Shown here piece by piece: positions 8,978-34,281 of a DNA stretch of 34,284 nt. Source of the stretch: Promethearchaeia archaeon (lineage in GTDB: Archaea > Asgardarchaeota > Lokiarchaeia > Sigyniarchaeales > SOKP01); contig JAHQWG010000024.1 of assembly GCA_029856045.1 (NCBI GenBank), forward strand, positions 1 to 34,284, written 5' to 3'. Numbering within the stretch: position 1 is the first letter of the stretch; each line of letters starts with the position of its first letter. The notes below the pieces were generated by a model, which saw only the letters and a program-made list of their open reading frames with translations, had not been told where the DNA came from and made no database searches. A program made the translations under genes and the position numbers.

Positions 8978-9322
8978 TTAGAGAGATTTATAATCTGCAA
9001 AAGCCGCACGTGCTAACCCAACATAATTATCCGAAATCTTGTAATAATTTGTATCATTTTTAGATTTTTTAATTAAAAAATTTGTATCTATTTTCTTTTT
9101 TAATGAAGTCATCATTGTACTTAATGTTACTATACCAATATAGCCAAATCTTTTCGCAAACCTAACTAATTCATTTTCTGAATGCCAATTACCGTCTAAC
9201 ATGATTTCTATGAGTCTATTTTTTCTAACATCTTTAATTCTCTGAATACGATTTAATAACATTGTATAATTAGGCTTATAATATATTTCCTCAATTTTAG
9301 ACAAATCATCTATTTTTTCCAT
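8978..9322 (-). CDS. Small winged-helix DNA-binding protein
   Basis: 114 residues from the ATG at 9322. An in-frame GTG at 9340 would add six residues; the ATG is preferred because it is preceded by AAGAAG, but this is uncertain. The centre (about 35-105) reads as a winged helix: NRLIEIMLDGNWHSENELVRFAKR forms helices 1-2, VTLSTMMTSLKKKI the recognition helix, and FLIKKSKNDTNYYKISD the wing. The N-terminal 30 residues are helical and charged. It is likely a transcription factor or a DNA- or protein-interaction adaptor. It is convergent with the membrane-protein pair, so autoregulation of that pair is not indicated. Confidence 0.65.
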   Translation of the reverse strand: MEKIDDLSKIEEIYYKPNYTMLLNRIQRIKDVRKNRLIEIMLDGNWHSENELVRFAKRFGYIGIVTLSTMMTSLKKKIDTNFLIKKSKNDTNYYKISDNYVGLARAAFADYKSL

Positions 9323-9444
9323 TTTCTTCTTCAAAACCACTATTATGGAATTAAAATTAAATATAAATAAATTATAAAAAAATTAAAAATAAGATAATAT
9401 TCAGGTATTACATTTTATTTTACATAATTGGAGTGTAGAAAAAA

Positions 9445-9756: not shown

Positions 9757-9815
9757 AAAATTATCTTCAGTTCTTAATATCATACAACAATGGAATATTT
9801 TAAGAATTGATTTAT

Positions 9816-11735
9816 ATGAAACTATTAGAACCTTTACTAATAAATAAATTAGAGATTCGAAATCGCATTATAATGCCTGCAATGGAAACAAATTTAGGCA
9901 ATAAGAAAGGAGAAATTACAGAAAAGCTTATGAAATGGTATGAATTAAGAGCGAAGGGTGGAGTTGGATTAATTATTGTAGAACCAGCTTATTTTGAGAA
10001 AAGGGGTAGTAGTACTAAATATATGCTTAGCATTTCAAGCGACAATAAGATTGAAGGTTTTACTAAATTGACAAAATTAATAAAAAAGTATGGAGCAACC
10101 GTTTTATTACAAATATATCATGCTGGAGCTCAATCTCCCTCCATGATAACAAAATGCTCGCCTGTTTCACCTTCTGGTGTTCCTTGCAAATTAACGACAG
10201 ATCAACCATTAGTGTTAAGTAAGCGAGAGATACATGAAATTATAAAGGGATTCACAGATGCTTCAGATAGAGCAAAAAAGGCATCTTTTGATGGGGTTGA
10301 AATTCATGCTGGGCATGGATACCTATTAAACCAATTCCTTTCAGAGAAAGATAACAAACGAACGGACGAATATGGTGGTAGTTTAGAAAATCGAGCAAGA
10401 GCATTAATCGAAACATTAACTGCAGTTAAAGGGAGATGTGGTAAAGATTTCATAGTGTCTTATCGTTTAAATGGTAACGATTACATAGAGAGGGGCTTGG
10501 AAGTTGAGGAAACAGCTAAAGTTGCCAAAATGTTAGAGGATACTGGAGTTGATCTTGTCCATATTTCAGCTGGTATTTTTGATTCAAAAGGATATCCAAC
10601 TGTGCCTTATATGAATTATCCAAAAGGTGTTTTTTCAGAATACGCTGCAAGAGTCAAAAAAGAATTAACAAGAACGCCTGTTGCTGCAGTTGGAAGAATA
10701 AACACTCCAGAAATTGCGGAAGAGATTTTAAAAGAAGGAAAAGCAGATTTAGTGGCAATTGGCAGGGGATTAATAGCAGATCCTTATTTTGTAGTGAAAT
10801 TAAAAGAAGGTAAAAGAAATTTAATTAGGATCTGTATGGGTTGTAATGCCTGTTTAAACCGAATATTAAGTATGAAGTCTGTTGCTTGTGCAATAAATCC
10901 TAATGTAATTGCCTCTGATGAAGATTTTAAGAATGCAAAAGGAAAGAAAAAGGTACTAATAATCGGATCTGGCCCAGGGGGGCTTGAGGCAGCTAGAGTT
11001 TCAAAGTTAAGGGGTCATTATGTATTATTAATTGATAAAGGGGATAAAATTGGAGGCACAATGCATCTTGCAAAAGTGGCTCCTATGAAGGCTGAAGTTG
11101 AAAATGCCATTGTTTTTTATAAGAATATATTAAAAGAATTAGAAGTGGAAATTCGTTTAAATACAGAATTTTCACAAGAAATAATTAGCGAATTTAAACC
11201 AGATGTTGCAATTCTAGCAACTGGATCTGTTCCTTTTATACCACCGATAAAAGGATTAAATCAAACTTCTTATTATGTGTACGATGAAGTTCTTAAAGGT
11301 AAAATACCAGATGGGGAGAAAATAGCAATTGTGGGTGGAGGAATGGTTGGTTTAGAAGTTGCAGAATATTTATCACACTTGAATAAAGCTATAACCATTA
11401 TTGAAATGTTGCAAAGAATTGGTATGAACGTCTATGCGTTTGTAGGAAAGGAAGTAATTCCAATAATCGAAGAGGATAAAAATATCAAGATTTTTGTAAA
11501 TACAAAAGTTGAGGAGATCCAAGATTACAAACTTATCGGTGTAAATAAGAATGGGACTATTATTAAGATTAAGTTTGACGATTTAATAATTGCTATGGGT
11601 GCCCAGCCAAATTGTGAAATTGAACAAGAGGTAAAAAATCTTGTGCCTGAAGTATTTTTAATTGGAGATTATAAAAAAATAAGAAAAATTTTTGATGCTG
11701 TAGAAGAAGGTTACAAAATTGCTCTTAAAATATAA
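9816..11735 (+). CDS. NADH:flavin oxidoreductase / 2,4-dienoyl-CoA reductase-type iron-sulfur flavoprotein
   Basis: 639 residues from the ATG at 9816; an in-frame TTG at 9807 is less likely because family members begin close to KLLEPLxINKLEIRNRI. Residues 1-335 form an old-yellow-enzyme FMN barrel: catalytic-region motifs GVEIHAGHGYLLNQFLS and DEYGGSLENRAR, and phosphate-binding AIGRGLIADP. A cluster motif CMGCNAC with another Cys 12 residues on (near 340-358) should bind [4Fe-4S]. Two Rossmann segments follow, IIGSGPGGLEAARVS (FAD) and IVGGGMVGLEVAEYL (NAD(P)H). This is the layout of E. coli FadH, trimethylamine dehydrogenase and bacterial BaiCD-type enoate reductases. It probably reduces an enoyl or dienoyl compound with NAD(P)H. 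Trimethylamine dehydrogenation is conceivable given the methylamine genes at 26-33 kb, but those are far away and corrinoid-based. Confidence 0.9.
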   Translation: MKLLEPLLINKLEIRNRIIMPAMETNLGNKKGEITEKLMKWYELRAKGGVGLIIVEPAYFEKRGSSTKYMLSISSDNKIEGFTKLTKLIKKYGATVLLQIYHAGAQSPSMITKCSPVSPSGVPCKLTTDQPLVLSKREIHEIIKGFTDASDRAKKASFDGVEIHAGHGYLLNQFLSEKDNKRTDEYGGSLENRARALIETLTAVKGRCGKDFIVSYRLNGNDYIERGLEVEETAKVAKMLEDTGVDLVHISAGIFDSKGYPTVPYMNYPKGVFSEYAARVKKELTRTPVAAVGRINTPEIAEEILKEGKADLVAIGRGLIADPYFVVKLKEGKRNLIRICMGCNACLNRILSMKSVACAINPNVIASDEDFKNAKGKKKVLIIGSGPGGLEAARVSKLRGHYVLLIDKGDKIGGTMHLAKVAPMKAEVENAIVFYKNILKELEVEIRLNTEFSQEIISEFKPDVAILATGSVPFIPPIKGLNQTSYYVYDEVLKGKIPDGEKIAIVGGGMVGLEVAEYLSHLNKAITIIEMLQRIGMNVYAFVGKEVIPIIEEDKNIKIFVNTKVEEIQDYKLIGVNKNGTIIKIKFDDLIIAMGAQPNCEIEQEVKNLVPEVFLIGDYKKIRKIFDAVEEGYKIALKI

Positions 11736-11842
11736 AAAAAATGTTTCTTTTGATACTTATATATCCATTATCTCTAATCTTTGGTAAAAAAAAAATTAAT
11801 CAGAATTCGTTTATAGACACTTTTTATCTTGGCAGTATCATT

Positions 11843-12130
11843 TTAATTCGCATTTGACTTTTGCAAAATTTTACGGTGCTTTATTATATCAAATTTGGTT
11901 ACTGCTAAATTCCCAAAATTATATAAAAATGGATATTTTTGTGCAAATATTTTGATTAATTCAAAACCTTTTGACGTAATCGAATATAACGATTCAGTGA
12001 ATTCATCTAAATTAAATATCGAGATCAATTCGTTTTTCTTAAGAGACTTGCATCGATGATAAAATTTTAATCGATCCCCCTCGATTTTTAGCCGAAATTC
12101 TCTAAAAGAAATAGATTTTAATGAAACCAT
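11843..12130 (-). CDS. Small hypothetical protein
   Basis: 95 residues, basic, no membrane segment. The ATG at 12130 lies just downstream of the T9 tract that probably ends the preceding SDR gene. The middle (LDEFTESLYSITSKGFELIKIF) loosely resembles the wing of a winged-helix protein, where a Y-x-IT-x-KG pattern is common, but the recognition helix is not clear. No family is recognised. It could be a small regulator or a spurious frame, although length and codon use are like its neighbours. Confidence 0.45.
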   Translation of the reverse strand: MVSLKSISFREFRLKIEGDRLKFYHRCKSLKKNELISIFNLDEFTESLYSITSKGFELIKIFAQKYPFLYNFGNLAVTKFDIIKHRKILQKSNAN

Positions 12131-12140
12131 TTAATTAGGG

Positions 12141-12149
12141 AAAAAAAAA
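12141..12149 (-). terminator. T9 tract after the SDR gene
   Basis: Nine A residues on the plus strand give T9 on the minus strand about 29 bases past the SDR stop. The tract is flanked by AGGG and CCCT, which can pair as a 4-bp stem. Oligo-T is the usual archaeal termination signal. Confidence 0.5.
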
Positions 12150-12177
12150 CCCTTATCTTCAAATATATGAAATAAAA

Positions 12178-13722
12178 TTAATCTAAAATATCCGTATAAC
12201 AATCCTCTGGATAGAAGTTATTTTCGTCCTTATCATGATTAGGATACCATATCTGAGCAAAGAATGGATTTTTTTTAGCTATTTTATCATAATTCCAAGG
12301 TGGAGGCAAACATTTTGGGCACCAATGACCAGCTTTAATTATAGTATATGGTTTTGCTTCAAATTCATGATCGAAAGCACATTTCCACTTGAGTGTGGTA
12401 TAAATATCACCGTCCCATTCTGTTGCGAGACATTTTCCTCCTCTAAATTCGGCAGCTCCTTGTAAATCTCCCAATTCAATTTGTTTTTTAGATTCATCAT
12501 AACCGTGGTCAAGTCGGAGCCATTCAAGTTCAGGTTTCATTTGAGGCATATCAACCCCCCAATCGGGGATTGACTCGTAGGTTTCATAATCTTTATAAAA
12601 AGCGGAGATTCTCATATCATTATTGTTTTCATACCAATGGAGCGTTCCATTCTTGGTAGATGCTAACTCTTTCATTCTTTTATATGTTGCTTCTTGAACC
12701 TTCTTTTGTATTTTTGGAAACTTTATGCATAATTTAGCAATTAATTTCAAATACCACGAACTACTTTTAACTAACATTTCATAATAGTCTTCCATTGAAT
12801 CTCTCCAATTATGTATGTATTCATTAAGAATATGACTGTCTTCAAAATATTGCATGTGAAAATTTCTTAATGCAAACCAATTACGCTCTGTGACTGCTTC
12901 AATACTTCCTAATCCATTTATTTCCATTGACTTATTCAGTAAATCATAATATGTACATCTACAAGCAGGCCCTCCAGCCATGTTATATACTCTACGCCAA
13001 AAATCGGAATTATCAGGAATATCCAAACAATTGATAATTCCTTGTCCTGCATCTCTCGCTGTGTTGTTTTCCATAAATGAATCGATTGGTTGATGAAACA
13101 TAATTGGATCTAGCATATTATCTGTAGTCATAATAAAAGTTTGCCGCAATGAAGCCCAATGTTTTATATTTGATTCTAAAACCGCACTTTCTCCATTAAT
13201 CTTAGTTACAGCATAGAAATCAAATATAGAAGGTTTAAGAGGATCTCCTATTCTACCCATGTGAATACTTTGAAGGCGATCACCAGTTTCAGCTACGGTT
13301 CCTATATAAATAAGTTTTATATGCTCTACGCCATTTGGCTGCGACTCAATTGCTTTGACAATATAATGGATTGCCGTGGTATTAACTGCTTTTGCCATGC
13401 TGGGGTTATGATCAGCTGCAGGTGAAATGAACGCCATTGTACAAAGACACCAATCGATTCCATTACATGCTTCTAAGACATCATCATAATTGGTTGCGTC
13501 TCCCCAGACTATTTTCAATCCTTTGCCCTCTACTATTCCATTACCAGTTATCGATTTAATTCCACACTTTCTCTCATATTTCTTAAACAATTTTTTGTTT
13601 TTCTTAGATGGGCGTTGTAAAAGAACAATATCATATTTATCTCTTTTTACCCATAAATTTTTAAAAGCCTCGAATCCCATGGAACCACTTGCTCCAGCCA
13701 AAAATATTTTCTCTCTTTTCAT
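12178..13722 (-). CDS. NAD(P)-dependent epimerase/dehydratase (extended SDR) with C-terminal zinc-binding domain
   Basis: 514 residues. The N-terminal Rossmann fold has the nucleotide motif GASGSMG at 10-16, WGDATNYDD near 73-81 (as in extended SDRs) and the catalytic Tyr170-x3-Lys174 in FYAVTKINGE, so it should be a sugar or isoprenoid-type oxidoreductase, epimerase or dehydratase. A helical middle (300-360) follows. The C-terminus (about 425-500) is separate: WKCAFDHEFEA and HWCPKC, with Cys448, His452, Cys468 and Cys471 as likely zinc ligands, resembling treble-clef zinc domains written C-x3-H...W-CPxC. Such an add-on on an SDR is unusual and may mediate protein or nucleic-acid contact. 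The start is ATG at 13722. The substrate is not predictable. Confidence 0.82.
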   Translation of the reverse strand: MKREKIFLAGASGSMGFEAFKNLWVKRDKYDIVLLQRPSKKNKKLFKKYERKCGIKSITGNGIVEGKGLKIVWGDATNYDDVLEACNGIDWCLCTMAFISPAADHNPSMAKAVNTTAIHYIVKAIESQPNGVEHIKLIYIGTVAETGDRLQSIHMGRIGDPLKPSIFDFYAVTKINGESAVLESNIKHWASLRQTFIMTTDNMLDPIMFHQPIDSFMENNTARDAGQGIINCLDIPDNSDFWRRVYNMAGGPACRCTYYDLLNKSMEINGLGSIEAVTERNWFALRNFHMQYFEDSHILNEYIHNWRDSMEDYYEMLVKSSSWYLKLIAKLCIKFPKIQKKVQEATYKRMKELASTKNGTLHWYENNNDMRISAFYKDYETYESIPDWGVDMPQMKPELEWLRLDHGYDESKKQIELGDLQGAAEFRGGKCLATEWDGDIYTTLKWKCAFDHEFEAKPYTIIKAGHWCPKCLPPPWNYDKIAKKNPFFAQIWYPNHDKDENNFYPEDCYTDILD

Positions 13723-13883
13723 TTTTGATTATACAAGTATTTTTTCTTTATTTTAATCTATTTCGAAGAATTATTATATTTGTTATTCCAATGAATTTGG
13801 GAAAAATATAATTGGGTTAATAGCAGCAAGGAAAATTTTTTAATAATTTCTTATTTTTATAGGTATATTTTTTTGTATATCAA

Positions 13884-14183
13884 TTAAGTTTTCCAATTTT
13901 CCTTCTCCAAATTTAGAAAATTTTGAAGTTCTTCTTGAGTCATTACCGTTAATTCGGTATCTAATTCCACACCAAACTTTTCAATAGAATTTTTTACACT
14001 GTTAATAAGAGAATCTTTGATTGGGATATTTGGGAAGGGTAATGCAAAAATGACTTTAACCTTACTTTCATTTATTTCGATCTTTTTAATCATCCCGAGA
14101 TCAATCAAAGAGCAATCAATAAACGGATGCTTTACTTGTGCTATTTCCTTATGAATTTGTTCTTCTGAGAAATTTTCAGGCAT
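13884..14183 (-). CDS. MIP18/DUF59-family iron-sulfur assembly-like protein
   Basis: 99 residues. It follows the MIP18 (DUF59) pattern: an N-terminal helix, then VKHPFIDCSLIDLGMIKKIEI, strand KVKVIFALPFPNIPIKDSLIN, and a helix followed by a VELDTELTVM strand. MIP18 proteins help deliver Fe-S clusters (SufT, CIA2-like) or activate enzymes. The usual DPE is replaced by HPFID, and the conserved Cys before Pro in the second half is absent (PNIP), as in a subgroup I associate with anaerobes. It ends the minus-strand group that includes the actin homologue, 51 bases after the actin stop. A link to actin is not implied by family knowledge. Confidence 0.75.
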   Translation of the reverse strand: MPENFSEEQIHKEIAQVKHPFIDCSLIDLGMIKKIEINESKVKVIFALPFPNIPIKDSLINSVKNSIEKFGVELDTELTVMTQEELQNFLNLEKENWKT

Positions 14184-14234: not shown

Positions 14235-15353
14235 TTATAATAGATTTTCAGGTATTTCATCATTATAATATTGCTCCCGTGTAACCCAATTTTCTGAAAA
14301 TTCCGGAATCATTCCCAATATTGATCCACCAATCCAAACCGAAAACATGCGTTCCTTAGGAGCAATTATTTTAACAATTTGTATTTTCTTTTTCTTTTTA
14401 GCTAAAGATAATTCTAATTCTTTATAGAGTCTAGATTTAAAATTAGGAAACATTGATGAACCCCCGGAAAGAAAAATATTGCCTAGTAATTTTGGTCTAA
14501 TATCTACATCACACTCTTCTATGCATTCTAAAATTGCTTCATGTAATGGAGTAATTTCTAAATTAAAAAGTGAAGGATTAAAGATTAATTCAGGGATTAA
14601 AAATCTAAGCTTATCTATTTCTAAAATTTCACCATCTGGTAAAGAAAAAGGTTTTTTATATTCTTCAAACCGTGTCGTATCTTCTTTAAAATCCAATGAA
14701 ACAAAACACGCTTTTTCTTTTATAACTCTTATAATTTGTTTCTTAACAGACGAATCTGCAGTAAATCCTGCTTGTTTTAATTGATGTTCCATAAATTCAG
14801 TAATCAAGTTACCCCCAAGATCTAATATCTTAATAGCATGGGATAACTGAAAACCTTCATAAACTGGAACAATTCTAGTGCTACTATCTCCAATTTCAAT
14901 AATTAAACCTGTTTGAAACCCACCCGAATAAAGTGTTAGAAGTGAATCCAAAACTGGATAAAAACTAGCACAATTAAATTTCTCTAAAAAAATATCAAAT
15001 AATTTTCTTTTATCTTGTTTTGGACTTAAAGGATGAACAGCATATAATACATTAGATACAATTGGATCAACACGTAGATTATAAAATATATACTCAAGAA
15101 TTTTTTCATAATAATTCCAATCATGAATTCTACCATTTTGTATCGGATGAAAAAGCTTATATAATCCCATTGCATCTTGGATTTCATTACCTATGCAAAT
15201 GTCACTAATTTTTTCTCCATATGTGATATCTACATTTTGATATTTTGGTACTCCAACTAAAGTAAAAAAAACACTATTTGGATGGTCTTCACCGGCAAAA
15301 CCAATTTTTGTTGAAAATTGTCCTATGTCCATGATTATTGTTACGTTTCCCAT
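14235..15353 (-). CDS. Eukaryote-type actin homologue (actin-related protein) with substituted ATPase residues
   Basis: 372 residues, close to the 375 of muscle actin, and alignable by eye over its whole length. Landmarks: DIGQFSTKIGFAGEDHPN (phosphate loop 1), HPIQNGRIHDWNYYEKI, FYNLRVDP, LYSGGFQTGLIIEIGD (phosphate loop 2), VPVYEGFQLSHAI, IKEKACFVSLDF, NIFLSGGSSMFP, KIIAPKERMFSVWIGGSIL and a C-terminal WVTREQYYND. The DNase-I loop is present at near-normal length. Asp9, Lys16 and Asp156 (actin Asp11, Lys18, Asp157) are kept. Gln14 in P1-loop order, Asp136, Glu153 and Arg160 replace actin Ser14, Gln137, Asp154 and His161. Family knowledge: Gln137 and His161 position the attacking water. The protein should fold as actin and may bind ATP, but hydrolysis is probably weak or different. 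It is 63 bases downstream of the PIG-L gene. Canonical Asgard actins keep Gln137 as far as I know, so this is probably an Arp-like paralogue. Confidence 0.93.
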   Translation of the reverse strand: MGNVTIIMDIGQFSTKIGFAGEDHPNSVFFTLVGVPKYQNVDITYGEKISDICIGNEIQDAMGLYKLFHPIQNGRIHDWNYYEKILEYIFYNLRVDPIVSNVLYAVHPLSPKQDKRKLFDIFLEKFNCASFYPVLDSLLTLYSGGFQTGLIIEIGDSSTRIVPVYEGFQLSHAIKILDLGGNLITEFMEHQLKQAGFTADSSVKKQIIRVIKEKACFVSLDFKEDTTRFEEYKKPFSLPDGEILEIDKLRFLIPELIFNPSLFNLEITPLHEAILECIEECDVDIRPKLLGNIFLSGGSSMFPNFKSRLYKELELSLAKKKKKIQIVKIIAPKERMFSVWIGGSILGMIPEFSENWVTREQYYNDEIPENLL

Positions 15354-15416: not shown

Positions 15417-16163
15417 TTAAACTAATAATATCCTTAATGGTACATATGTAGTTTCGGGAATATAAGCCTCTCCATATCTAGAATTTATTTCATTGCCTCT
15501 TAATATAGCGGTGTCCTCTGCCCAATCTAGAACGCGTGATAATACTTCTTTTTGTGAGGCATACACTTGATTAAATATTTCTTTTTTCTTTTCCCAATAT
15601 TCTTCAATATCTACGATAATAAAGACTGAACTTTCAATATATTGAAACTTGCAAGAAGGACTCTCATAATAATAAACACCATATGGTATCCAAGATCGTT
15701 CATGTCCTCCATAAGCTTTGCCAGTACAACAGTGATATATTGCCTCTCGAGAAATAAAGGATAAATTTCGGTGCACTCGATGAAAATCAGTGTGATGAGG
15801 TATTAGGATTAAATGTGGTTTATAATCTCGAACCATATTTGTAATACGAGATATTTTCGAACGACTTATTTCTAAAGAAGTATATTCTAACTCTATAAAT
15901 TTACATCTTAAAATTTCTGATAATTTTTTTAATTCATTTTTTCTTTGAGTTAAAATAGTATCTTCTTGTTCATTCTTAGCATAACCCCCTAAACCAGAAG
16001 TAGCAACAACAACACAAATTTCCGCGCCCATTTCCAAGTATTTTAGGAGTGTTCCACCGCAACTTACTATTTCATCATCCGGGTGTCCTGCAAAAACCAT
16101 AATTCTTTTGGGAACAACTATAGGAACATCTTCTTCACATATAATAAAACGCTTTTCTGGCAT
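15417..16163 (-). CDS. PIG-L/LmbE family deacetylase
   Basis: 248 residues. The zinc-site motif AGHPDDE (25-31, with His27, Asp29, Asp30) and a later DFHRVH (126-131) supplying another His are the signatures of the PIG-L/LmbE N-deacetylase family, which includes GlcNAc-phosphatidylinositol, mycothiol, bacillithiol and antibiotic deacetylases. There is no signal peptide or membrane anchor, so it is probably cytosolic. Length is normal for the family. It is 63 bases upstream of the actin gene on the same strand and could share a transcript. Possible substrates are GlcNAc-bearing lipids or thiol precursors; none can be chosen from sequence. Confidence 0.87.
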   Translation of the reverse strand: MPEKRFIICEEDVPIVVPKRIMVFAGHPDDEIVSCGGTLLKYLEMGAEICVVVATSGLGGYAKNEQEDTILTQRKNELKKLSEILRCKFIELEYTSLEISRSKISRITNMVRDYKPHLILIPHHTDFHRVHRNLSFISREAIYHCCTGKAYGGHERSWIPYGVYYYESPSCKFQYIESSVFIIVDIEEYWEKKKEIFNQVYASQKEVLSRVLDWAEDTAILRGNEINSRYGEAYIPETTYVPLRILLV

Positions 16164-16332: not shown

Positions 16333-17025
16333 TTAATCTCCGCGCATAATTTTTTTTAAACGATTTAATTCATCTAACATTTCATCTCTTAAAGTACTTA
16401 AACTTCCTCCTGCTTGAGATGCAACCGTTGGACTAGGTGTAGTTGGAGGTGTTCCAAGAGATGGTGCTGCAGGGGGTCCAGAACGCTTTGCAAATGAGGG
16501 AGTCGAAACTACTGGACCAGCCTTAGAAGGTGGTCCTGCTTTTCCTGGAGCTGGTGGTAATTTTGGTGGGGGAGGTAAATTTTTTGAAGGTGGTCCAGCA
16601 TTTATAGGTGGTCCAGCATTCGTAGGTGGTCCAGCCTTCGTAGGTGGTCCTGATGGGGGTCCTTTTTTAACTGGAGGTCCTGGTCTTTTAGGCGGTCCTG
16701 ATATCGGTGCAGATGGTGTTGCTGCAGCTGATGGAACGGCAGTAGTTTTTCCGCCAGCTCCACCTAATAAAGCGAATAAAGTACTTGCGGCTTGAGTTTT
16801 TGCAGTACCACCAGCTTCTACTTCCGGAGTTAGCTTTACTGAAGAAGAACTAACTGTTTTTCCTTTTACGACTTTAACTCCTTTAATATCATTCTCTGCT
16901 TTTTTCAAGGATTTACCAAAGTCATTTATTGTATCAACTGTATCCTGTAAAACTTCAGATAAATCACCTAAACTTTTACGAAGATATTTAATAACCCGTG
17001 TAACTGTTTTTTCATCAGAAGGCAA
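16333..17025 (-). CDS. Proline-rich (GPP-repeat) protein with C-terminal amphipathic LKKI helix
   Basis: 230 residues. The N-terminus (1-50) is a charged helix suited to coiled-coil formation (VIKYLRKSLGDLSEVL). Residues 81-92 are small and hydrophobic. About 110-195 is low-complexity with some nine GPP units in roughly six-residue repeats (AGPPTNAGPPINAGPPSK) and a PPPPKLPPAP core. The last 20 residues form an amphipathic helix with MLDELNRLKKI. Polyproline tracts recruit profilin-, SH3- or EVH1-type domains, and an amphipathic helix ending LKKx is the shape of WH2 actin-binding motifs; an actin-regulator role is inferred mainly from the gene lying two genes upstream of the actin homologue. 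The start is TTG at 17025: an in-frame TGA lies just upstream and GAGTGAT sits five bases before it. No known family is recognised. Confidence 0.75.
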   Translation of the reverse strand: MPSDEKTVTRVIKYLRKSLGDLSEVLQDTVDTINDFGKSLKKAENDIKGVKVVKGKTVSSSSVKLTPEVEAGGTAKTQAASTLFALLGGAGGKTTAVPSAAATPSAPISGPPKRPGPPVKKGPPSGPPTKAGPPTNAGPPINAGPPSKNLPPPPKLPPAPGKAGPPSKAGPVVSTPSFAKRSGPPAAPSLGTPPTTPSPTVASQAGGSLSTLRDEMLDELNRLKKIMRGD

Positions 17026-33222: not shown

Positions 33223-34281
33223 TTATCTATCTTGTTTTTCTAACCTTTCTAATGTTTCTTTAATTTTTTTCAATTCAACTTTTAAATCTTCGCCTTGTTT
33301 ATTTTCTCCTTTTCTCCTACTTTTTAATTCTTCTTCATCAATTTTTTTTAAAAGAATATTATTTTTCAGTTCTTCTGAAATTATTTTTTTAATTTCCTTT
33401 AAAAATTGATTGCGGGGAAGCCCATTTATTTCCATTATTCTTTCCCTTACTGCAGATCTAATAAATTCTGATTTCGACTGATTAGTTTTTTTGGCAAATA
33501 TTTCAATTTCTTTTAATTCATTTTCATTTACCAGAAATTTGACTTGATATATTCTTTTTAACGTTTCTTCGACTTTTTTTAATTCTTCTCTACGTTTTCT
33601 TCTCTCTTCTTCTCTCGCTTTTAACGCTTCTTCGGGGGGTTCTTTAAAATATTTACCATTTTTATGAGATGGTATAAAATCTTCTTTATATTCTCTTATT
33701 ATCGCTTTTCTAAGACTACTTGATATTCTTTTATTATAAATTGATTTCCGAATAATAATTTGATGAATCAACTTACCAATTGCTTTTTCTAAATTGCTAT
33801 TATCATTTATTGAAGTTTCAATGTAATCAACTAATCCCTCTTTTTTAACAAATTCACGATATTTTTTTCTATCAATGGTTTTAAGGTTTTCAATTAAATC
33901 AAATTTATTTCCAATTAATAGGAGTGGCCATCTATTTAAATTAATGTTATTCCAAATTTTTTTAAGACATTTAGAGTGGTATTCAAAAGTTTCTGGATTA
34001 GATAGGTCGAAGACAAATAAAACAGCTGAGGTTCCGCTGTAATATTGTTCATGGAGCTTTTCAAATTTTTTATCATCAATAAAATCCCAAATTTGAAGAT
34101 TATAATTATTTTCATCAACCAATACTGATTTTTGAAAAAAATTTACACCAATTTTTAATTTCCAATCTTCTTTTTCTTCGAATAGTTTTTTAGCATATTG
34201 TTCCATTATATTAGTTTTCCCAACCCCTGACTTTCCAAGAACTATAATTTTAAATTCATCTTTAAATTCTTCTTTACTCAT
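33223..34281 (-). CDS. Rab/Ras-type small GTPase with degenerate switches and a C-terminal ribbon-helix-helix-like segment
   Basis: 352 residues; a usual Rab is about 200. Residues 8-178 are a Ras-fold G domain: P-loop GKSGVGKT at 16-23, LKIGVNF at 42-48 (switch I), IWDFIDDKKF at 64-73 (switch II), VLFVFDLSNPETF, NKFD at 125-128 and ETSIND (G5). Lys43 replaces the switch I Thr (Ras Thr35), and the WDxxGQ Gly and Gln are Asp69 and Asp70. Residues 217-245 are a charged helix. About 244-285 reads as a CopG-type ribbon-helix-helix: strand YQVKFLV, helix ENELKEIEIFAKKTN, turn QSKS and helix EFIRSAVRERIMEI. A coiled coil follows to the end. There is no C-terminal prenylation Cys. It probably binds GTP but hydrolyses poorly; the added segment could bind DNA or dimerise. 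ATG at 34281. Confidence 0.88.
   Translation of the reverse strand: MSKEEFKDEFKIIVLGKSGVGKTNIMEQYAKKLFEEKEDWKLKIGVNFFQKSVLVDENNYNLQIWDFIDDKKFEKLHEQYYSGTSAVLFVFDLSNPETFEYHSKCLKKIWNNINLNRWPLLLIGNKFDLIENLKTIDRKKYREFVKKEGLVDYIETSINDNSNLEKAIGKLIHQIIIRKSIYNKRISSSLRKAIIREYKEDFIPSHKNGKYFKEPPEEALKAREEERRKRREELKKVEETLKRIYQVKFLVNENELKEIEIFAKKTNQSKSEFIRSAVRERIMEINGLPRNQFLKEIKKIISEELKNNILLKKIDEEELKSRRKGENKQGEDLKVELKKIKETLERLEKQDR

Follow-up and report, generated by a model that had tools for sequence, protein, structure and literature searches.

Background

Actin-related proteins (ARPs) of Asgard archaea have already been reported. The study on Candidatus Lokiarchaeum ossiferum describes a lokiactin along with three ARPs (UYP44126.1, UYP44711.1 and UYP47647.1), and an RT-qPCR analysis of the transcripts of all four in which those of lokiactin were the highest (PMC9834061). 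Hence, the prokaryotic parallel to the eukaryotic Arps, which the initial annotation of the locus considered here had raised, is anticipated by published work. The passages of that study consulted contain no discussion of the catalytic residues of Asgard ARPs, and a search of the open-access literature, with most subscription journals lying outside it, recovered no description of substitutions in their nucleotide pockets. Among eukaryotic relatives, Arp8 (INO80) has Glu at actin position 137 and Ser at position 161 and holds ATP tightly with a low basal ATPase activity, a part in hydrolysis having been proposed for its Glu266; Arp4 does not hydrolyze ATP (PMC3510490). Arp2 and Arp3 resemble the protein described below in being divergent actins that occur beside a canonical actin, but unlike it they keep Q137, D154 and H161. 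Relative to the Asgard Arps already known, what is new in the present case is a fixed rewrite of the pocket and a conserved neighborhood with a proline-rich protein.

Identification and phylogenetic position of ArpA

The protein is encoded in a 34,284-nucleotide stretch of a Lokiarchaeial genome (contig JAHQWG010000024.1), the whole of which constitutes the window, and the name ArpA was coined for it in the present analysis:

14235..15353, minus strand: ArpA, actin-related protein of 372 aa; complete ORF with an ATG start, orthologs and a predicted structure

The initial annotation had thus delimited a real and intact open reading frame, leaving unsaid that it lies on the minus strand. Residues 5-363 of ArpA match the Pfam Actin family (PF00022; E=3.9e-88; score 296 bits, curated cut-off 27) and eukaryotic actins are matched with E about 1e-87, which bears out the earlier statement that the whole protein aligns with eukaryotic actin. 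ArpA is a full-length actin homolog of the actin/Arp branch. An AlphaFold model built from 87 actin-family sequences (an earlier one from 20 orthologs was poor, with a pLDDT of 69, and was set aside) has a pLDDT of 90.3 and a pTM of 0.88, the D-loop (41-49) alone being unsure, and superposes on actins with a TM of 0.90-0.93. According to this model ArpA possesses the four-subdomain actin fold. Its hits in BFVD are confined to Hsp70 folds and a distantly related viral actin-related protein.

In a 59-row tree the ArpA sequences form one clade (support 100/100) on a long stem, outside the lokiactin clade (99/96), and ArpA stands alone once more when the longest branches are left out (35-row tree). 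The best trees join it to neither Arp2, Arp3 nor Arp4, and AU tests rejected none of the constrained placements, be it with human Arp4 (p 0.24), Arp3 (p 0.40) or Arp2 (p 0.14), or as a lineage arising from Lokiarchaeal lokiactins (p 0.32). Its earlier designation as an actin-related protein is upheld by this separate clade, which the best trees place apart from canonical lokiactins; a position within canonical Asgard actins, which the initial annotation had named as an outcome that would speak against it, is not seen in those trees, and placement with the Lokiarchaeal lokiactins stands unrejected by the AU test. Because ArpA is narrowly distributed (see below), we tentatively favor an origin by duplication within the order, an independent parallel to the Arps and kinship with a eukaryotic Arp being further candidates.

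The same genome (3.34 Mb, Lokiarchaeia) carries three PF00022 genes. One encodes a canonical lokiactin (L002; G000:C27:401092-402174) with Q137, D154 and H161 present, as had been anticipated by the suggestion that a canonical actin is encoded elsewhere. ArpA therefore combines the two features by which an Asgard ARP is recognized in the usage of PMC9834061, namely an Asgard actin homolog that lies outside the lokiactin group in the best trees and a lokiactin in the same genome, and it is a Lokiarchaeal actin-related protein. The third gene, L003 (L003:1441-2643; C36:158706-159905 in this genome), is more diverged and is part of another altered clade of actins (L156-L185) that is common in the family to which the genome belongs, and whose substitutions are separate from those of ArpA. 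At Asp154 the members of this clade have Asn; at His161 they mostly carry Tyr and near Gln137 mostly Glu, and there is a deletion around Gly74. Two single divergent actins lie outside the three main groups: L198 (genome G118) has Lys at 161 with Asp154 kept, and the match region of L200 (genome G092) has an internal stop. Gelsolin-domain proteins are also encoded in the genome with ArpA, and the profilin model PF00235 recovered nothing convincing in it.

The rewritten active site

To establish residue correspondences, ArpA was aligned with actin by HMMER and, together with Asgard homologs and actin/Arp references, by MAFFT. Among the reference sequences, those of human Arp4 and Arp2 agree with solved chains at every position, and that of Arp3 differs from its chain at one. 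The following sites distinguish ArpA:

15306..15329, minus strand: phosphate loop 1, ArpA residues 9-16 (DIGQFSTK), at actin 11-18 (DNGSGLVK)
15033..15035, minus strand: ArpA H107, at actin Ala108 in the Pro-rich loop; His in 51/57 orthologs
14946..14948, minus strand: ArpA D136, at actin Gln137; D in 50, G in 6 and E in 1 (n=57)
14895..14897, minus strand: ArpA E153, at actin Asp154; E in 52 and D in 5 (n=57)
14874..14876, minus strand: ArpA R160, at actin His161; Arg in 57/57

Both alignments are free of gaps between actin residues 137 and 161 and confirm the assignments made from the sequence in the initial annotation for D136, E153, R160 and phosphate loop 1. The elements of the predicted structure occur in the order found in actin (strand 130-135, helix 136-144, strand 149-154 and strand 159-165), with D136 beginning the helix and R160 sitting in the last strand, matching Q137 and H161 in actin. 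Given this order and the close superposition on actins, no register shift brings a Gln or His to the catalytic positions; such a shift, which had been raised earlier as a structural check, is ruled out by the gap-free alignment together with the predicted structure.

In phosphate loop 1 the D, G and K are kept, with S14 changed to Gln and G15 to Phe; across the 57 orthologs S14 is Gln in 51, G15 is Phe or Tyr in 55, G158 is Ser in 55, and H73 is mostly Lys or Asn. The nucleotide-holding residues D11, G13, K18, G156, G182, R210, K213, E214, G301 and G302 are invariant or nearly so in the same set. A comparison with lokiactin (asgardactin 01, including the copy in the same genome and UYP47028.1 of L. 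ossiferum) brings out the selective nature of these changes: the two share the actin fold with 44% identity over their full length and both keep D11, G13, K18, G156, R210, K213 and E214, whereas lokiactin keeps Q137, D154, H161, A/P108, H73 and T/S14, none of which is kept by the ArpA consensus, and the two branch apart in the best trees. The substitutions are not due to chance, since Arg is found at 161 in 57/57 orthologs, position 137 is always D, G or E (57/57), position 154 is always E or D (57/57), and dN/dS between close relatives is 0.05-0.14. The flipping of His161 in actin is governed by two residues of the Pro-rich loop, Ala108 and Pro109, and the Q137A mutant has low ATPase activity (PMC10062479); therefore, partner residues of the hydrolysis trigger have been altered together in ArpA. 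This constellation suggests a pseudo-ATPase, which would keep nucleotide bound without actin-type hydrolysis.

Close parallels to this pocket come from the nuclear Arps. Arp8, like ArpA, has an acidic residue (Glu) in place of Gln137 and has lost His161 (to Ser), and the phosphate loop 1 of Arp4/BAF53 (DIGSYTVR) resembles the DIGQFSTK of ArpA, Arp4 also being without Gln137 and His161. However, the nuclear Arps carry large insertions, whereas ArpA is actin-sized (372 aa) and without them, its residues at positions 154 and 161 being E and R.

Distribution and selective constraints

Orthologs of ArpA occur in 61 genomes from two families of one Lokiarchaeal order, namely in 54/65 genomes of its own family and 7/8 of the second, with 47-94% identity, and were found nowhere else among 228 Asgard genomes. 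The genomes that have it include Candidatus Prometheoarchaeum sp. and Candidatus Harpocratesius repetitus. An ArpA profile cleanly delimits the family, with full-length members scoring at least 582 bits and all other Asgard actins at most 396 bits. In the case of L. ossiferum, the primer sequence was not found in the compared genomes of the order, and peptides from the translated primers were used instead. The UYP44126.1 primers, as printed in the study, encode GGENEP and YPVRGA, which among the sequences compared occur only in ArpA, and both printed primer positions are offset from these peptides by an equal number of codons. Because of this specificity and equal offset, UYP44126.1 is very probably an ArpA ortholog of the Gly137 type, and, judging from the primers used in the published RT-qPCR, the ortholog in L. 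ossiferum is transcribed.

A permutation test on weighted per-site entropy was used to compare position sets in ArpA and lokiactin. The nucleotide pocket is among the most conserved parts of ArpA (P 0.001), as in lokiactin, and the hydrophobic cleft is also conserved (P 0.012), with the D-loop being variable (P 0.003). At the positions taken, on general background about F-actin contacts, to form the filament interfaces, the lateral subdomain 1/3 contacts are far more variable in ArpA than in lokiactin (rank +0.32, P<0.001), the lokiactin sample being small (5.5 effective sequences); for the barbed-end longitudinal and the pointed subdomain-4 surfaces of ArpA the same test shows no greater relaxation than in lokiactin. 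As the position sets follow general background on F-actin and the lokiactin sample is small, the relaxed lateral contacts support, and do not prove, the proposal that ArpA builds no F-actin-like filament of its own.

Gene neighborhood

Several genes accompany ArpA in the window and in the genomes of its relatives:

15417..16163, minus strand: PIG-L family deacetylase, 64 bp upstream of ArpA (PF02585, E=7e-20)
16333..17025, minus strand: proline-rich protein with GPP repeats, the motif LPPPPKLPP and a near-invariant C-terminal LRDEMLDELNRLKKIMRG
8978..9340, minus strand: 120-aa protein, winged-helix-like by eye, with no confident Pfam match

The PIG-L gene lies directly upstream of ArpA in 25/49 loci of its own family and 2/7 of the second, and the proline-rich gene lies upstream on the same strand within 3.5 kb in 37/49 own-family loci. 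The gene for the 120-aa protein is directly downstream of ArpA in 44/49 own-family loci; in the window it lies about 4.9 kb away with other genes in between. These intervening genes (window 9807-14183) include an FMN oxidoreductase, a 3-beta-HSD-like gene and FeS-assembly genes, and since they are missing at the same place in relatives they are probably a genome-specific insertion or rearrangement. In 4/7 second-family loci (L125, L126, L128 and L129; Prometheoarchaeum and Harpocratesius) the gene directly upstream of ArpA instead encodes a Ras-family GTPase. It is similar to one at window 33223-34281 (minus strand), where PF00071 and PF01402 are matched by one ORF, an unusual fusion of a Ras-family GTPase with a ribbon-helix-helix-like C-terminal part. 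A topoisomerase gene is also kept near ArpA, and therefore plain synteny could account for part of the conserved neighborhood. The proline-rich and PIG-L genes also adjoin in a genome without ArpA (G085:C120:5533-6896), and the pair is thus independent of ArpA. PIG-L paralogs number 8 in the genome of ArpA itself.

In the proline-rich protein, an apparently helical N-terminal part is followed by GPP repeats and an almost invariant C-terminus (LRDEMLxELxRLKKIMRG). Searches recovered no Pfam match and no meaningful PDB match for it; inspected by eye, its C-terminal helix bears at most a tentative likeness to WH2 or to the VASP tetramer. Similar C-termini close proline-rich proteins in distant Asgard families, several of them with an N-terminal membrane segment; the module is found in L232, L233, L235, L237, L242 and L243, in the last of these inside a Ras-like protein. 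From these sequences the C-terminal module emerges as a lead for a putative new regulatory module, which may or may not be connected with actin.

Functional implications

The best-supported inference, which we regard as evenly poised between right and wrong, is that ArpA holds nucleotide without actin-type hydrolysis and acts as a regulator beside lokiactin. In its favor are, among other points, the lokiactin and gelsolin-domain proteins of the same genome, the precedents of Arp8 and Arp4, and the low ATPase of Q137A actin. The actin fold (in the predicted structure) and the nucleotide pocket are kept in ArpA, and replaced are the residues that in actin activate the water (Q137 and H161), position metal and water (D154), control His161 (A108) and sense the gamma phosphate (S14, G15, H73 and G158). 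Under this proposal ArpA would bind ATP (or ADP) tightly with slow or absent hydrolysis, and R160 together with D136/E153 might form a network of charges close to the gamma phosphate. Given its relaxed lateral and D-loop surfaces beside a conserved hydrophobic cleft, it would form no F-actin-like filament of its own, and may instead work in partnership with lokiactin or with lokiactin regulators, as a regulator, cap or nucleator, like eukaryotic Arps. The different nucleotide cycle and the regulator role suggested in the initial annotation would both agree with these features. If the initial annotation is read as saying that such residues must abolish hydrolysis, it goes too far, given the low basal ATPase of Arp8 with its Glu 137 and Ser 161 (PMC3510490). 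By analogy, an acidic residue at 137 could still share in hydrolysis, as proposed for Arp8 Glu266.

This latter point bears on the view that ArpA is an actin in its own right that builds filaments under another ATPase cycle, in which Asp136 (or Glu153) would be catalytic in place of Gln137; in bacterial actins an acidic residue takes the catalytic role. Consistent with such a cycle are the D or E at 137 in 51/57 orthologs, a pocket as conserved as that of lokiactin, barbed longitudinal and pointed subdomain-4 surfaces that are no more variable than those of lokiactin, and the similar role proposed for Arp8 Glu266 (PMC3510490). However, one subclade, of the Prometheoarchaeum type, has Gly 137 and Asp 154, and still Arg 161, and thus there is no fixed catalytic base in ArpA; moreover, His161, Ala108, Ser14 and His73 have all been replaced and the lateral contacts are relaxed, which leaves this view doubtful. 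Unlikely, and less probable again, is a scaffold subunit outside the lokiactin cytoskeleton, comparable to nuclear Arp4/Arp8 in chromatin remodelers, with ATP in a structural role. The PIG-L enzyme, the proline-rich protein or the Ras-like GTPase would be candidate partners, since a PIG-L gene immediately precedes ArpA in both families (25/49 and 2/7 loci), the proline-rich gene lies upstream in 37/49 loci and the GTPase gene immediately upstream in 4/7 second-family loci, but the neighbors of ArpA differ between the families, the proline-rich/PIG-L pair also occurs in G085 without ArpA, and PIG-L paralogs are numerous (8 in this genome).

That ArpA might be a relic, a lokiactin duplicate that lost catalysis and is decaying, is scarcely credible. 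The active-site substitutions and the unrejected origin from Lokiarchaeal lokiactins (AU p 0.32) would fit it, but the ORFs are intact, ArpA is kept in most genomes of the two families (54/65 and 7/8), and the published RT-qPCR on L. ossiferum shows transcripts of UYP44126.1, very probably its ortholog (PMC9834061). The kept nucleotide-holding residues, the conserved pocket and the dN/dS of 0.05-0.14 likewise argue that it is no decaying copy, and this last measure rules out a decaying pseudogene.

A bolder extension of the regulatory reading, which we consider a long shot, is that ArpA is a dedicated prokaryotic Arp, permanently ATP-bound, that works on lokiactin filaments by capping or nucleation, assisted by the neighboring proline-rich protein, whose C-terminal helix module LRxEMLxELxRLKxIM, recurrent in proline-rich and membrane-anchored Asgard proteins, would be an unrecognized actin-regulatory element. 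If true, the regulation of actin assembly by an Arp and a proline-rich factor would be older than eukaryotes.

Eukaryotes have helper actin-related proteins, and ArpA looks to be their counterpart in a prokaryote. Single Asgard genomes display the split between one canonical actin and a catalytically rewritten Arp, and in 61 genomes the latter can be followed by its residue-level signature. As a small protein whose relatives include cultured organisms, ArpA offers a test of whether Arps arose from duplicates of actin that had given up hydrolysis, and likewise of whether Arp-type regulation predates eukaryotes.
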